Below are positions 50,075 through 56,701 of a DNA stretch of 64,000 nt, in pieces. Positions within the stretch are counted from its first letter, which is position 1; the number at the start of each line of letters is the position of its first letter. The translations under genes and the position numbers were made by a program. Source of the stretch: Aurantimonas manganoxydans SI85-9A1 (GTDB lineage Bacteria; Pseudomonadota; Alphaproteobacteria; Rhizobiales; Rhizobiaceae); NCBI RefSeq assembly GCF_000153465.1, contig NZ_CH672387.1:1806046-1870045 (forward strand), read 5' to 3'. The notes under the pieces are model-generated. The model was not told the origin of the DNA. It did no database searches and worked only from the letters and a program-made list of their open reading frames with translations.

Positions 50075-52096
50075 CTAACGCTGGGCGGTGTTGACCGGCT
50101 TGACCAGCGGGGTGATGCGCCGGACGGTGACCCGCCGGTTCTCGCGGTTCTCCGCCTGCGTATCGACCTTCAGGTCCTGCTCGCCATAGCCCTGGGTGAC
50201 GAGGTTCTCCGGCGGCACGTCGAAATACTGGGTCAGTGCCGTGGCGACGCCGTCGGCGCGCCGGTCGGAAAGGGCGAGATTGGCCCGCTCGCTGCCCACC
50301 GCGTCCGTATGGCCTTCGATCAGGAAGGTCTCGTCCGGGTTCTCGGCAATGACCCGTGCGATGGCATCGGCCAGGGCCCGCAGGTCGCCGACCTCCTCCT
50401 GGGTGATCTCCGCCGATCCGAAGTTGAAGTTGATCGTGCTGAGATCGATGCGGCGCACCTTGTCGCGCACGCGCTCCGACCGGCGGACCTCGTTGAGGGA
50501 GTAGATGCGGTCGACGGTCTCGACGGGCGGGGCGACGATGGTCCGGTAGTAGAGCTCCTCGTCGGGATCCGTCACGTCGACGATGTAGTCCTCGCGCGGG
50601 ATGCGCAGGTCGAGCGGCGGCAGGTCGGCGCCGACGTCGCTGTAGTAATAGTCGTCCTGACGCTCGTCGTCCTGATACGGATCGTAGAACAGCACGACTT
50701 CGCTTCCGTCCGGCATGATGCGCGAGCGGCGCACCACATCGCCGTAACGGTTGGTGATCGTCACCACCTGGACGCCGTTCGGCCGGACCACCGTCTCGCG
50801 GGTGCGATCGCCGCGCAGGCGGTCGTAATAACGCTCCTGCGCATCGACCGCGATGCGGTCGTCGTCATTGCCGCGGATGAAATAGGCCGCGGCTCCGCCG
50901 GCGAGCGCGCCGACGGCGCCGGCACCGACGATCGACAGGATGTCGCGATTGCCGACGCGGTCGACGACCTCGACGCCCGGCGGCAGCGGCGCCTGCTGGT
51001 TGACGGTGGTGTTGTTCACGACGGTGTTGTTGGTCGTCGTGCTGTTGTTGATTACCGTGTTGTTCGTCGTGGTGCTGCCGGCACTGCCGTCCGCCGCCGC
51101 GGCGTTCGGCGCCTCGATCCGTTCGCCTTCCTCGGCGGTGATCGGAGTCACCTCCACCGGCTCGGCGAGCTGCTGGACGCGGGCGTCGCTCGCGGCGACG
51201 CCGCCTTCCGGCACGGCCTCGGTCTGGACGGATTCGTCCACCGCTTCCGGCTGCGATTCCGGAGCGGTCGGCTCGGGCTGCGCGGTGGCCTCGGCGGCGG
51301 GCTGCTGGTCGGCTGCAGGCTGCTCCCCGGTTGCTGGGTCGGCCGGCTGTTCAGGCGACGTTCCCGCCGGCTGTTCGGCGGTGTCAGCCGCGGGCGCAGC
51401 GCCGTCGGTGCTCTCCGGCTCCGCTGCTTCGGCAGGGGCGTCCGGCTGCGGCTCGGCGGCCGGCTCGGCCGTCTGCGCTTCCGCATCCTCTGCCGCAGGC
51501 GCTGCGGGTGCGACATCCTGGGGCGCGGCTTCCGCCGCAGGCTCGGACGGGGCTTCGGGTTCGGCGGCCGGCTCCTCTACCGGCGTCTCGGCTGCCGGTT
51601 CGCCGGCCTCCGGCTCGGCTGCTGGAGCCGCTTCCTCGACGGGTTCCGCCGGGGCTTCGGCCTCGGTCGGGGCCGCTTCCTCGGCAGCCGGCTCAGGCTC
51701 GACCTCCGGTGCTTCAGCCTGGGGCTCTTCAGCCTGGGGTTCCTCAGCGGGGGCTTCGGCTGCCGGCTCCGGCTCAGGCGCGACGGTTTCTGCCGGGGCT
51801 TCGGCCGGCGGTGCCTCGGGTTCCGGTGCCGGCTCAGGCTGCGGCTCCTCGACGGGAGCGGGCTGCGGCTCGGCGGCGGGCTCCTCGACCGGTGCGGCTT
51901 CCTCTACCGGGGCGGGCTCCTGCGCAGCCGGAGCTTCCGGCTCAGGGGCCGCATCCTGCGGCAACAATTCCTCGGCCTGCGCGACGCGGATAGTCGCCGC
52001 CTCCTGCGCGTAAGCGGCGATGGGCCCTGAGAGGGCTGTCGAGGCCGCCAGCGCGGCGACACCGACGAACCTGCCGGTCCTGTTACTTTTCGGCAT
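50075..52096 (-). CDS. OmpA family protein with long Pro/Glu/Ala-rich region
   Basis: A 673-residue envelope protein. A signal peptide (RFVGVAALAASTALSGPIAA, cleavage near YAQ) is followed by about 390 residues of Pro-Glu-Ala repeats (AEPEAPAEEPQ type), an Asn/Thr-rich stretch (TTTNNTVINNSTTTNN), a glycine-zipper-like segment (VGAGAVGALAGGAAAYFI), and a C-terminal OmpA peptidoglycan-binding domain (INFNFGSAEITQEEV, FLIEGHTDAVGSERANLALSDRRA, NLVTQGYGEQD). The acidic stalk may span the periplasm or surface. The ATG at 52096 has AAGG nine bases upstream; the open frame continues to 52702 without meaning. It ends at a strong terminator. Confidence 0.9.
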   Translation of the reverse strand: MPKSNRTGRFVGVAALAASTALSGPIAAYAQEAATIRVAQAEELLPQDAAPEPEAPAAQEPAPVEEAAPVEEPAAEPQPAPVEEPQPEPAPEPEAPPAEAPAETVAPEPEPAAEAPAEEPQAEEPQAEAPEVEPEPAAEEAAPTEAEAPAEPVEEAAPAAEPEAGEPAAETPVEEPAAEPEAPSEPAAEAAPQDVAPAAPAAEDAEAQTAEPAAEPQPDAPAEAAEPESTDGAAPAADTAEQPAGTSPEQPADPATGEQPAADQQPAAEATAQPEPTAPESQPEAVDESVQTEAVPEGGVAASDARVQQLAEPVEVTPITAEEGERIEAPNAAAADGSAGSTTTNNTVINNSTTTNNTVVNNTTVNQQAPLPPGVEVVDRVGNRDILSIVGAGAVGALAGGAAAYFIRGNDDDRIAVDAQERYYDRLRGDRTRETVVRPNGVQVVTITNRYGDVVRRSRIMPDGSEVVLFYDPYQDDERQDDYYYSDVGADLPPLDLRIPREDYIVDVTDPDEELYYRTIVAPPVETVDRIYSLNEVRRSERVRDKVRRIDLSTINFNFGSAEITQEEVGDLRALADAIARVIAENPDETFLIEGHTDAVGSERANLALSDRRADGVATALTQYFDVPPENLVTQGYGEQDLKVDTQAENRENRRVTVRRITPLVKPVNTAQR

Positions 52097-52278: not shown

Positions 52279-53436
52279 TTAATCCTTGGGCGGGCGCCAG
52301 TCGTAGAGCCAGGCGAGATCGCCGGCGAGGCTGGCCGCCGAGCGCGATGCCAGCACCGCATTGCGGCCGAGGCTGAGCGGAAACGGCAGGTGGTAGACGA
52401 AGCGGTGAAAACCGACCCGCGACCGGACCTTGTCGATCCGTGGCCGCCGCTCTGTCTCGTAGGCCCGCAATGCATTGCTCAAGTCGGCGGCGCGATCGAG
52501 ATGGTTGGCCAGCACCGCCGCATCCTCGATTGCCATGGCCGCGCCCTGCGCCGCATAGGGCAGCATGGCGTGCGCCGCATCGCCGATCAGGATCAGGCGG
52601 TCGCCCAGATGCCGCCAGGGCCGCGCGCCGGGCACGGCTTTCAGCGGCCAGGCGGTGAAGGCGCCCACCGCCGCGATCATCGCGCCGAGCCGTCGGTCCC
52701 ACTTCGAAAAGCGCGCCGGAAGGTCTGCCGGGTCCACCGAACCGCTCGCAGGCTCGATGAGGACGAGATTCGTCTCCCTTCCGCCGGCGATGGGGTAGGC
52801 GACCGCATGACGCCGCGGGCCCAGCCAGGCTTCGATACCGCCAGCCGGCATGGGGCCGCCGGTGACGCGGCCGCGCCAGGCAAGGGCGCCCGTCGCCGCC
52901 GGTCCTTCCAGGCCAAGCCGTTGGGCCGTGGGCGAGTTCACGCCGTCCGCGGCAATGACGAGCGTCGTCTGCAGGATCTCGGTGCCGTCAGGGCTGATGG
53001 CTTCGACGCGCAGATCGCCGCCGTCCCGTGCGACGACGCCGATGTCCCGGCCGAGCCGAAGATCGATCCGGCTTGAGGCCGCGGCGGTACGTGCGAGCCA
53101 GGACTGGAGATCGGCCCGGTGAATGGAGAGGTAGGGCGTTCCGTCGGCCGAACTGACCGGCACCGATGCGATCGGACGGCCGGTCCGGGCGGCATGCAGG
53201 GTCACCGTTTCGGCGACCGTGCCGCGGGCCTTCAGATCGTTCAGATCGCCGAGACGGGCGAGAACGCGCAACGCGTTGGGCGACAATTGCAGGCCGGCCC
53301 CGACCTCTTCCAGCCGGGGCGCGCGCTCGACGACGATGCAGGGACGATCGCGGCGCGCCAGTTCCAGCGCCATCGTCAGGCCGGCCATGCCGGCGCCGAT
53401 GATGACGACCGGCCGCGTCCGGTCGATGGCGCCTAT
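52279..53436 (-). CDS. FAD-dependent monooxygenase (UbiH/salicylate hydroxylase type), no standard start codon
   Basis: A flavoprotein hydroxylase of about 385 residues. The dinucleotide-binding motif is RPVVIIGAGMAGLTMALEL, GD motif 2 is LILIGDAAHAMLPYAAQGAAMAIEDA, and the DG motif is VIAADGVNSP. The first ATG (53388) lies inside GAGMAG and would destroy the FAD site. Between the upstream in-frame stop and that ATG there is no ATG, GTG or TTG. The likely start is ATA at 53436, which lies one base past the zinc-finger gene's stop and has AGAAGG nine bases upstream, or ATC at 53427. This could be a rare initiation codon, an ATG-to-ATA mutation or a sequence error. Substrate unknown. Confidence 0.8.
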   Translation of the reverse strand: MGAIDRTRPVVIIGAGMAGLTMALELARRDRPCIVVERAPRLEEVGAGLQLSPNALRVLARLGDLNDLKARGTVAETVTLHAARTGRPIASVPVSSADGTPYLSIHRADLQSWLARTAAASSRIDLRLGRDIGVVARDGGDLRVEAISPDGTEILQTTLVIAADGVNSPTAQRLGLEGPAATGALAWRGRVTGGPMPAGGIEAWLGPRRHAVAYPIAGGRETNLVLIEPASGSVDPADLPARFSKWDRRLGAMIAAVGAFTAWPLKAVPGARPWRHLGDRLILIGDAAHAMLPYAAQGAAMAIEDAAVLANHLDRAADLSNALRAYETERRPRIDKVRSRVGFHRFVYHLPFPLSLGRNAVLASRSAASLAGDLAWLYDWRPPKD

Positions 53437-53437
53437 G

Positions 53438-53683
53438 TCAGGCGGCCTTCTCTTCGAACTGGCAGCCGGGAGGAATCGTGTCCCAGCCCTTCAGCGAGGA
53501 ATTGTAGCGGTAGAGGGTCGAGCAGTAGCTGCAGACCATCTCGCCCTCGTCGCCCATGTCGAGATAGACATGCGGATGGTCGTGCGGCGGGTTGGCGCCG
53601 CAGCACATGAATTCGTTGACGCCGACCTCGATCAGATCATGTCCGGCATCGTTCTGGAAATGGGGGATCGTGTGCCCGGCCAT
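53438..53683 (-). CDS. CHCC-type zinc-finger domain protein (NDUFS6-like)
   Basis: An 81-residue protein with the zf-CHCC pattern: EFMCCGANPPHDHPHVYLDMG (Cys27/28, histidines 34-38) then EMVCSYCSTLYRY (Cys51-x2-Cys54). This is the zinc domain of the complex I subunit NDUFS6 and of many small alphaproteobacterial proteins. The ATG at 53683 places homology at the start; a longer frame begins at 53725. The stop is one base before the ATA that probably begins the FAD monooxygenase, so the two are an operon. Confidence 0.88.
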   Translation of the reverse strand: MAGHTIPHFQNDAGHDLIEVGVNEFMCCGANPPHDHPHVYLDMGDEGEMVCSYCSTLYRYNSSLKGWDTIPPGCQFEEKAA

Positions 53684-53814
53684 TGCGGCTCGCCCTCGGC
53701 TCGGTTGCGCTATGGCGCGGACCATAATGGCGCCGGTCGCGAATGAACAGGGGGTGGCGAAACCTCCGTCATGGCTCTAATGCGCCTGTGACGTCTGATC
53801 GGAAAAGCACGGGA

Positions 53815-54582
53815 ATGGCAGCCATGGACACCTTCACCAGCGACGGTCTGCAACTGGCCTTCACCGATACCGGCGAGCGCGACCGGCCCGCCGTGCTGCT
53901 CGTCCACGGCTTCGCCTCGTCGATGCGGGTGAACTGGATCGACACGGGCTGGGTGAAGACGCTCAACGAGGCCGGCTACCGCGTCGTCGCCTTCGACCAT
54001 CGCGGCCATGGCCAGAGTGCCAAGCCGCAGGACGAGGCGGCCTACACGCCGCAGAAGATGGCCGGCGACGTGGTCAATCTGCTCGATCATCTCGAGATCG
54101 GCGAGACCGTGATCTTCGGCTATTCCATGGGCGCGCGCGTATCGGCCTTCACCGCACTGGCGGCGCCGGGGCGGATCTCGAGGATCGTCTTCGGCGGTCT
54201 CGGCATCGGCCTCGTCGAGGGCGTCGGCGATTGGGACCCGATCGCCGCGGCGCTGCTGGCACCGTCGCTCGACGACGTGACGGATCCGCGCGGCCGCATG
54301 TTCCGGGCCTTTGCCGACCGCACCCGCAGCGACCGGCATGCGCTGGCCGCCTGCATCTCGACCTCGCGGCAGGAACTGACCGAGGCGGAGGTTGGGCGGA
54401 TCGCCCAGCCGACATTGATCGGCGTCGGCACTACCGACGACATCGCCGGTTCGCCCGACGCGCTCGCTGCACTGATGCCGAATGCCCGGGTCTTCGCGAT
54501 AGAGGGTCGGGACCACATGCTTTCGGTCGGCGACCGCACCTTCAAGGCGGAGGTCCTGCGCTTCCTGGGCGAGGCCGCGTGA
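53815..54582 (+). CDS. Alpha/beta fold hydrolase
   Basis: A 255-residue alpha/beta hydrolase. The oxyanion region is VLLVHGFASSM, the nucleophile elbow is GYSMGAR (Ser104), and the catalytic His is in IEGRDHMLSV near the end. A cap region (GIGLVEGVGDWDPIAAALLAPS) lies between. FDHRGHGQSAK is typical of esterases and C-C hydrolases. No substrate can be named. It overlaps the next hydrolase by four bases (GTGA). Starts at 53815 or 53824 are both possible. The divergent neighbour is the CHCC zinc-finger gene. Confidence 0.88.
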   Translation: MAAMDTFTSDGLQLAFTDTGERDRPAVLLVHGFASSMRVNWIDTGWVKTLNEAGYRVVAFDHRGHGQSAKPQDEAAYTPQKMAGDVVNLLDHLEIGETVIFGYSMGARVSAFTALAAPGRISRIVFGGLGIGLVEGVGDWDPIAAALLAPSLDDVTDPRGRMFRAFADRTRSDRHALAACISTSRQELTEAEVGRIAQPTLIGVGTTDDIAGSPDALAALMPNARVFAIEGRDHMLSVGDRTFKAEVLRFLGEAA

Positions 54583-55454
54583 CCACGCGCCCTGTGGAAT
54601 GGATGGGGGCCGGCGGACATCGTCTCGTCGCCGACCGTCCGGTAGCGGACGGTCATCCGGTGCTGCTGCTGCATGGCGGCGGGCAGACACGGCAGGCCTG
54701 GTCGCATGTCGCCGGCCGGATGGCCGGGCGCGGCCTGTCGCCGATCGCCGTCGATCAGCGCGGCCATGGCGACAGCGAATGGATCGCCGGCGGCGGCTAC
54801 AGCTTCTTCGATTTCGGCGCGGATGCCGGCGCGCTGGCGGATGCGATCGCCCTGGAGTCCGGGGCGAAGCCCGTGGCGGTCGGTGCTTCGCTGGGCGGCA
54901 TCGCCAGCCTGCTGGCGCAGGGCGAGGCTGACCGCTTCGCCGCGCTGATCCTCGTCGACGTGACGCCGAGTCTCAACGAGGACGGTGTCGCCCGTGTCCA
55001 TCGCTTCATGACCGACCGGCTGGCCGACGGCTTCGCCAGCCTCGAGGAAGCGGCGGAGGCGGTTGCCGCCTATCTGCCCAACCGGCGACCTTCGGGATCG
55101 TCGAAGGGCCTGGCCAAGAACCTGCGCCGTTCCGCCGATGGCCGCTATCGCTGGCACTGGGACCCGGCATTCATCGACGGGCCGAACAGCGTCGCCATGC
55201 GCCGGGACGCGGCGCGCACGGCAATGATCACTGCCGCGCAGGCCTTGACCATTCCGACGCTTCTGGTGCGCGGTGGCCGCTCGGACATGGTCACGAGTGC
55301 CGAGATCGACGAATTCCGCGTCCTCGTCCCTGCGGCCGAGTTCGTCGACATCGCCGGTGCGGGGCATATGGTTGCGGGCGACCGCAACGACGTTTTCGGC
55401 GATGCGATCCTCGAATTTCTCGCCCGGCACGGATTTGCAACGCTTGCTGGCTGA
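54579..55454 (+). CDS. Alpha/beta fold hydrolase (second, coupled)
   Basis: A 291-residue alpha/beta hydrolase with VLLLHGGGQTRQAWS at the oxyanion site, VDQRGHGDSEW, the nucleophile elbow GASLGGIAS, an acid in LLVRGGRSDMV and the His in IAGAGHMVAGD. The GTG start overlaps the previous stop as GTGA, so translation is coupled, and the two hydrolases may act in sequence. Similarity to the first is only at fold level. It precedes cysE by 141 bases, a gap that may hold a separate promoter. Confidence 0.88.
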   Translation: MTTRPVEWMGAGGHRLVADRPVADGHPVLLLHGGGQTRQAWSHVAGRMAGRGLSPIAVDQRGHGDSEWIAGGGYSFFDFGADAGALADAIALESGAKPVAVGASLGGIASLLAQGEADRFAALILVDVTPSLNEDGVARVHRFMTDRLADGFASLEEAAEAVAAYLPNRRPSGSSKGLAKNLRRSADGRYRWHWDPAFIDGPNSVAMRRDAARTAMITAAQALTIPTLLVRGGRSDMVTSAEIDEFRVLVPAAEFVDIAGAGHMVAGDRNDVFGDAILEFLARHGFATLAG

Positions 55455-55595
55455 GGCGCGCACCGAACCTCGCGCGGGCCGATCGCGGCGGCGGAACGCA
55501 GCGTTCCGCCGCCGCGGCTTCCCCTGATGGCCTCGCGCGCCTATCTTTGACAGTGAGCAGGCGCCGTTTCGGCGCATCCCGACCGGGAGACTTCC

Positions 55596-56420
55596 ATGAG
55601 CAGCATGAGCTCGCATTCCCACGAGACCCTTCAGGCCGTCGATCCGATATGGGCCCAGGTCCGGCTGGAGGCAGAGGACGTCGCGGCGCGTGAACCGGTT
55701 CTGTCCGGCTTCGTCTATCCGACGATCATCAACCAGCGCAGCCTGGAAGCGGCGCTGATTCATCGCGTGTCGCAGCGGTTGGACCATCCGGATCTGCCGG
55801 CGGTCACCATCGCCCAGGCCTTCGCCGACTTGCTGGATGCCGACGACAGCTTCCGTGCGACGCTGCGCACCGACATTCAGGCGGTCTATGACCGCGACCC
55901 GGCGTGCGAGCGCTATCTGGAGCCGCTGCTTTACTTCAAGGGCTTCCACGCCATCCAGACGCACCGGCTGGCCCACTGGCTGTGGAACGCCGGGCGGCGC
56001 GACTTCGCACTCTATCTGCAGGCGCGCTCCTCGGTGGTCTTCCAGACCGACATCCACCCGGCCTCGCGCATGGGACGCGGGATCTTCCTCGATCACGCGA
56101 CGGGGCTGGTCGTCGGCTTCACCGCCGTGATAGGCGACAACGTCTCGATTCTTCAGGACGTCACGCTCGGTGGCACCGGCAAGGAATTCGGCGACCGCCA
56201 TCCGAAGATCGGCAGCGGCGTCCTGATCGGGGCAGGTGCGAAGATCCTCGGCAATATCCGCGTCGGCGAATGCTCGAAGATCGCGTCGGGTTCGGTGGTG
56301 CTGAAGGAAGTGCCGCCGCATACCACCGTGGCCGGCATTCCCGCGCGGGTCATCGGATCGGCCGGCGATTGCGACGAGCCGGCCCGGGCGATGGACCAGT
56401 GCTTCGAACGGAACGACTGA
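55596..56420 (+). CDS. cysE: Serine O-acetyltransferase
   Basis: Acetylates serine to O-acetylserine, the first step of cysteine synthesis. The 274-residue protein has the N-terminal helical domain (DPIWAQVRLEAEDVAAREPVL) and a left-handed beta helix of hexapeptide repeats (FQTDIHPASRMGRGIFLDHATG, VIGDNVSILQDVTLGGTGKE, DRHPKIGSGVLIGAGAKILG). The catalytic His is in LDHATG and the C-terminal AGIPARVIG ends the core. GGGAGA before the ATG is a good ribosome binding site. DUF3126 follows, as commonly seen in rhizobia. Confidence 0.96.
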   Translation: MSSMSSHSHETLQAVDPIWAQVRLEAEDVAAREPVLSGFVYPTIINQRSLEAALIHRVSQRLDHPDLPAVTIAQAFADLLDADDSFRATLRTDIQAVYDRDPACERYLEPLLYFKGFHAIQTHRLAHWLWNAGRRDFALYLQARSSVVFQTDIHPASRMGRGIFLDHATGLVVGFTAVIGDNVSILQDVTLGGTGKEFGDRHPKIGSGVLIGAGAKILGNIRVGECSKIASGSVVLKEVPPHTTVAGIPARVIGSAGDCDEPARAMDQCFERND

Positions 56421-56491
56421 GCGGCGTCCGAGGATTGAAACGAGTGACCGGCGCCTAGCTACAGGCGCCCCAGACGATCCAGGAGAATGCT

Positions 56492-56701
56492 GTGAAGCCC
56501 GACGAAATCCGCAAGCTCGAAGCCTACCTCAGGAGCAGCTTCAAGACCGCCGACATCAAGGTCCGCGCGCTGCCGAAGAGTGCCGACTCGGCGGAAGTCT
56601 ATCTCAACGACGAGTTTGTCGGACTGCTCGCGAAGGATACCGAGGAGGGCGAATTGTCCTACCACCTCACCATGACGATCCTGGACATCGACCTCGAGTA
56701 G
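56492..56701 (+). CDS. DUF3126 family protein
   Basis: A 69-residue protein matching the DUF3126 family of alphaproteobacteria (MKPDEIRKLEAYLRSSF, NDEFVGLLAKDTEEGELSYHL, TILDIDL). Function unknown. The start is a GTG with AGGAG six bases upstream; an overlapping ATG three bases earlier is out of frame. It lies 71 bases after cysE in the same direction and ends before a perfect terminator, so cysE-DUF3126 is probably one transcript. Confidence 0.9.
   Translation: MKPDEIRKLEAYLRSSFKTADIKVRALPKSADSAEVYLNDEFVGLLAKDTEEGELSYHLTMTILDIDLE

Follow-up and report, generated by a model that had tools for sequence, protein, structure and literature searches.

A flavoprotein monooxygenase gene without a canonical start codon behind an NDUFS6-like gene in Aurantimonas manganoxydans

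The window analyzed here, a stretch of 64,000 nucleotides from Aurantimonas manganoxydans SI85-9A1 (contig NZ_CH672387.1, positions 1,806,046 to 1,870,045), carries on its minus strand an NDUFS6-like gene of the zf-CHCC family (PF10276; Pfam E 8.8e-12) at 53438–53683 and, directly behind it, the gene of an FAD-dependent monooxygenase at 52279–53436. The upstream protein matches Bartonella 2jz8 with an E value of 2e-29. A longer zf-CHCC frame runs from ATG 53725, and because residue 1 of 2jz8 aligns to residue 15 of this longer frame, the gene probably starts at ATG 53683. Similarity to the mitochondrial NDUFS6 chains is weak (E 0.004 and 0.007), and no second zf-CHCC match was found in the genome. 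A homologue of NDUFS6 is described as a subunit of Paracoccus complex I (PMC11522691), and by analogy the zf-CHCC protein of the window would be a complex I subunit as well. The product of the next gene downstream of the pair, at 50078–52095 on the minus strand, is long, has a stretch rich in Pro, Glu and Ala and, by eye, resembles OmpA at one end; the repeat is overlain by long antisense open frames.

The monooxygenase frame ends with its stop at 52279 and encodes 385 residues when read from ATA 53436, an assignment that draws on the translation, the orthologues and a match to Pfam FAD_binding_3 (PF01494; E 1.2e-26, 94.2 bits against a cut-off of 22). It combines this domain with the GxGxxG and GD motifs by which group A flavoprotein monooxygenases are recognized, and by sequence it belongs to that group. 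The nearest PDB chains are, by deposited title, a decarboxylative vanillate 1-hydroxylase (8x38), a 4-hydroxybenzoate decarboxylase (8gsm) and a probable salicylate monooxygenase (4bjy); with these and with family NF005062 the protein shares nearly full-length similarity and the GxGxxG and GDAxHA motifs. None of the best 25 of 57 NCBIfam families reaches its cut-off for a named-enzyme (equivalog) assignment, the best among the matches listed being NF005062 with 257.9 of 524 bits. An AlphaFold2 model of the protein read from ATA (mean pLDDT 85.8, pTM 0.89) places the first strand at residues 10–13 and the first helix at residues 17–28. The FAD-binding motif GAGMAG occupies residues 14–19 (53380–53397), as located by direct reading, alignment and the structure model, and residues G14, G16, G19, G285 and D286 are invariant in 12 aligned orthologues.

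The junction of the two genes reads, on the minus strand, ...GAAGAGAAGGCCGCC TGA C ATA GGC GCC ATC GAC CGG ACG CGG CCG GTC GTC ATC ATC GGC GCC GGC ATG GCC GGC. The open monooxygenase frame begins at 53490, and its first ATG, GTG or TTG is met 34 codons in, at the ATG of 53386–53388, which is residue 17 and lies inside the FAD-binding motif. Direct reading of the frame thus bears out the original prediction that no ATG, GTG or TTG precedes this motif, and the gene shares with other genes of conserved non-canonical start the lack of a canonical codon ahead of an essential N-terminal motif. The TGA stop of the zf-CHCC gene (53438–53440) stands one base ahead of the ATA at 53434–53436, which is codon -13 relative to GxGxxG, and the ATC at 53425–53427 is codon -10. 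As had also been noted, a Shine-Dalgarno-like AGAAGG (53446–53451) ends nine nucleotides ahead of the ATA.

To place this junction among its orthologues, we drew on 60 relatives, a species-genome collection, 394 genomes drawn from the family and five genera of the family. The search of the 60 genomes gave loci for 30 matches; from the species-genome collection 80 of 387 relatives were kept, among the matches listed; the family draw listed 35 with E <= 1e-75; and of the 42 genomes from the five genera, 40 had a match at the same threshold. The resulting 157 loci collapse to 145 distinct ones after removal of duplicates, with L034 left out since the motif pattern was not found in it. In all 145, which were chosen by the monooxygenase and span many Hyphomicrobiales genera, a zf-CHCC frame, recognized by a short cysteine pattern and not by HMM, ends upstream, so the pairing seen at 52279–53725 in the window recurs throughout. 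When the homologues' codons are compared, as the original prediction had proposed, the canonical codon in the expected stretch is ATG in 109 distinct loci, GTG in 19 and TTG in 11, leaving six with none: the window, its nearest relative among the genomes compared, G007, A. aggregata (G003), G001, Aurantimonas sp. CSK15Z-1 (L040) and G082 (L141). With a canonical codon in the expected stretch of 139 of the 145 orthologous loci, its lack in the window appears to be more than a chance oddity. The count depends on how deep inside the zf-CHCC gene a start is allowed, being six at 20 nt, five at 35 or 60 nt and three (the window, G007 and A. aggregata) without limit. In G082 an ATG occurs 28 nt into the upstream gene, and in G001 and CSK15Z-1 the nearest canonical codons are more than 110 nt into it; by these sequences the strict count is three and the reasonable count five.

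Similarity upstream of the first canonical start proves nothing by itself: in a protein-alignment control of window ORFs against G001, five of the 18 ORFs kept align 10–39 residues upstream of that codon, one of them (54123–56528) being antisense to other frames, and the monooxygenase itself was dropped by the overlap filter. The argument rests instead on the Rossmann motif, the orthologues and the ratio of nonsynonymous to synonymous divergence (dN/dS). G007 has 89% identity in the monooxygenase protein and 94–96% nucleotide identity in the flanks, and its junction is identical from the upstream stop to the motif (TGA-c-ATA-ggcgcc-ATC). Between the window and G007 the monooxygenase has a dN of 0.057 and a dS of 0.231, that is a dN/dS of 0.25, and six other close pairs in the genus, species with canonical starts among them, give 0.20–0.28. 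The frame is open over 385 codons in both genomes, and the sole indel in their 2.5 kb alignment is of three bases. By these measures the gene has been maintained as protein-coding despite its missing canonical start, and the same absence occurs, under purifying selection, in A. aggregata, G001, CSK15Z-1 and possibly G082. The divergence between the window and G007 is uneven: the monooxygenase (52282–53436) has a dS of 0.23 and the zf-CHCC gene two differences in 288 nt, and the first and last 35 codons of the monooxygenase are nearly identical, a pattern suggestive of a recombination event within the monooxygenase gene that brought in part of another allele.

These data bear directly on the readings in which the gene is not translated from ATA or ATC. 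A base-call or assembly error, which the original prediction had allowed, has only the oddity itself in its favor and is refuted by the same bases at the junction of a separate genome with flanks 94–96% identical; unless both assemblies share the error, it is ruled out, and we consider its probability negligible. The same prediction had also offered that an ATG mutated to ATA and silenced the gene. A lost start codon in a silent or nearly silent gene heading to decay would fit the missing canonical start and the weak ribosome-binding site, and the distant pairs, at dN/dS 0.39 (window/A. aggregata), 0.27 (window/G006) and 0.36 (window/G034), leave room for a mildly relaxed lineage, although with dS near 1 these are poor estimates. 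The window/G007 value nevertheless sits within the range of close pairs, the 385-codon frame is intact in both genomes with the single three-base indel, and other lineages likewise do without a canonical start; the dN/dS values disfavor a pseudogene, and we judge silencing unlikely. Nor does a shorter working protein begun at ATG 53388 seem credible, even though this is the first canonical codon of the frame. Counted in the structure model, the internal Met is number 17 in the chain, and initiation on it would delete the first Rossmann strand together with glycines G14 and G16 of GxGxxG; the position is Ile in most orthologues, and the start lies at least five codons ahead of the motif in 139 of 145 loci. 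Of the three readings originally offered, low-efficiency initiation at ATA or ATC is therefore the one these comparisons best support.

The relatives also suggest which of the two codons would be used. Codon -13 is ATA in the window and G007, GTG in G005 and G006, and CTG in A. aggregata, G001, G002 and G004, of which G002 and G004 additionally carry ATG at -11 and -9. Since it is initiator-like in all eight genus genomes compared, -13 is likely the shared start position in the genus, and ATA 53436 appears favored over ATC 53427 by roughly two to one. The same mechanism with its start at codon -10, an infC-like AUC/AUU start that would make the ATA incidental, holds a smaller but real share of the best explanation. 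The four genus genomes that lack a canonical start have ATC, ATC, ATC and ATT as codon -10, the four that have one GCC, GTC, GTC and ACC, and the infC gene of the genus appears to begin with ATT. Against this stand the initiator-like -13 codon of all eight genomes (GTG in two), the distance of ATC from the upstream stop (10 nt, as opposed to 1 nt for ATA) and the lack of Shine-Dalgarno pairing ahead of -10 in A. aggregata and G001, where its predicted value is about nil. Another way to bypass the start, +1 frameshifting at GCC TGA C in the manner of prfB, would fuse the zf-CHCC protein to the monooxygenase; the relative frame of the latter, +1, and the prfB-type stop context TGA C would suit such an event. 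GCC is, however, not known as a slippery codon, the corresponding bases in A. aggregata and G001 are TAA G, the monooxygenase of CSK15Z-1 and G082 lies in the other frame, and the frame relation of the two genes is spread 50/36/23 among 109 loci. Instead of the conserved frame relation and stop context of a prfB-like site, the loci that lack a canonical start show differing stops, next bases and frames, and we reject the frameshift fusion as very improbable.

Ahead of ATA the best predicted pairing reaches -4.2 kcal/mol, a value that falls between the -3.2 median of 400 positions taken at random from the window and the -5.1 of their best quarter. The AGAAGG proposed as a ribosome-binding site therefore stands as to position and gains little support as to strength, and pairing prediction found no strong Shine-Dalgarno site at the junction in the window. 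A search for special RNA structure at the junction was likewise unconvincing (z scores of -1.57 and -1.50; 13 and 18 of 200 shuffled sequences fold equally well). What the candidates do share is closeness to the upstream stop, overlapping it or lying very near it as in termination-reinitiation pairs: +1 (ATA) and +10 (ATC) in the window, +4, +13 and -8 in A. aggregata and G001 (the relatives' CTG at +4 and an extra CTG 8 nt inside the upstream gene), and -4 nt in CSK15Z-1 and G082. In these last two, CTG and stop share bases in the form CTGA, preceded by GAGG and GGAG, with a best pairing of -5.9 in CSK15Z-1; CTGA stems from a common Ala-stop ending in that frame and is present too where an ATG or GTG exists (L043, L172). 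In Escherichia coli gene pairs a distance of +14 nt is reported to cost 40–80% of reinitiation and +38 nt almost all of it (PMC10666635), and this restriction to short distances places all monooxygenase candidates (+1 to +13, -4, -8) within range. Among the orthologues, the median distance of the assigned start from the upstream stop is 22 nt for ATG (109 loci), 10 for GTG (19) and 4 for TTG (11), where the assigned start is, by rule and not by mapping, the last ATG, otherwise the last GTG, otherwise the last TTG. The difference between ATG and GTG plus TTG has a Mann-Whitney p of 2e-7, uncorrected for ancestry and for the start-picking rule. Weaker codons thus tend to go with closeness to the stop, a trend that ATA and CTG would fit.

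We propose, with a probability of roughly 0.75, that the monooxygenase gene is intact and translated from a near-cognate codon just behind the upstream stop by reinitiation, with low, coupled output. Some ribosomes would finish the zf-CHCC frame at TGA 53440–53438 and reinitiate at once with initiator tRNA, preferentially at ATA 53436, yielding the complete FAD monooxygenase in small amounts coupled to the upstream gene. We infer from the comparison of genomes that the gene is translated, by this route and from this codon, and that low coupled output may be of benefit. How often the canonical start was lost can be gauged from a 21-row protein tree with five of the loci without one (G082 left out), which requires three state changes, two of them forced by well-supported branches. 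The window and G007, near-identical around the junction, count as one event. As few changes were needed in 31 of 500 label shuffles, and the recurrence is thus only loosely clustered on the tree. An ancestral reconstruction reports two switches to CUG and one to AUU among 61,358 AUG starts, and one of each among 5,080 GUG starts (PMC5622118). By this rough comparison, with a reference study that rests on annotated starts, a single gene family with two or three losses seems to exceed the usual rate by far.

Bacterial genes with a known AUA, AUC or CUG start are few, and annotation programs limited to ATG, GTG and TTG would shorten such genes or drop them. A gene pair that keeps its order while the start of its second member runs through ATG, GTG, TTG, CTG and ATA offers a natural experiment on reinitiation replacing the start-codon requirement. 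More tentatively, and at somewhat less than even odds, we suggest that in Aurantimonas and related genera the coupled monooxygenase has been freed in part from the start-codon rule by reinitiation directly behind a gene of complex I accessory type, so that its start codon drifts among ATG, GTG, TTG, CTG and ATA (or ATC/ATT) and can be weaker the nearer it lies to the stop. If true, a single device would set the ratio of the two proteins, and within it the strength of the codon and its distance from the stop could stand in for each other. A coupled gene with a repeatedly non-canonical start in related species and such a trend of codon strength with distance was not found described in the literature searched, and among the papers listed for Aurantimonas and start codons none is, by its title, on this gene.

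Non-canonical starts as such are an established, rare kind in bacteria. In E. coli, infC, which encodes IF3, starts on AUU and is autoregulated. The genus seems to use an AUU start in infC as well: the gene reads as an ATT start, by position and not by mapping, in the five genus genomes searched (G000–G004), with pairing of -5.9 to -7.4. The infC ATT of L121–L125 sits behind a GGAG or AGGAG stretch; no canonical codon precedes it in frame in L121 and L124, and some occur further upstream in L122, L123 and L125. Of three infC loci from outside the genus, L126 offers no start candidates other than ATT/ATA ahead of the conserved part, L119 has ATC along with canonical codons in frame, and L120 was not parsed. 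The monooxygenase resembles infC in that a near-cognate start would keep output low, and differs from it in that the Shine-Dalgarno pairing of infC is clear and its codon identical in the five genus genomes, whereas the monooxygenase start varies between species. With the termination-reinitiation pairs described in PMC6728339 and PMC10666635 it shares a start that overlaps the upstream stop or lies within a few nucleotides of it and genes that stay together; the available text of these reports treats canonical starts and names ATT as no more than a rare option. PMC4648390 describes ribosomes that reinitiate on non-canonical codons once they have terminated, there as an artefact of an expression system and here, as we propose, in a natural gene pair. 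The strength of such codons differs between hosts: in one context AUU, AUA, CUG and AUC are reported to give 0.1–0.3% of AUG output in E. coli and 5–20% in clostridia (PMC9680021). Further parallels are the conserved, working AUA starts of ccpN and citZ and AUU start of cvfC1 in Staphylococcus aureus, where AUU and AUA are given as yielding about 10% of AUG output and, for ccpN grown in rich medium, as much as 30% (PMC13009471). According to the available text of that report the S. aureus starts are directed by extended Shine-Dalgarno motifs, whereas in the window the pairing is weak and the start lies behind an upstream stop; common to both would be a non-canonical AUA or AUU-type codon and a lower output.
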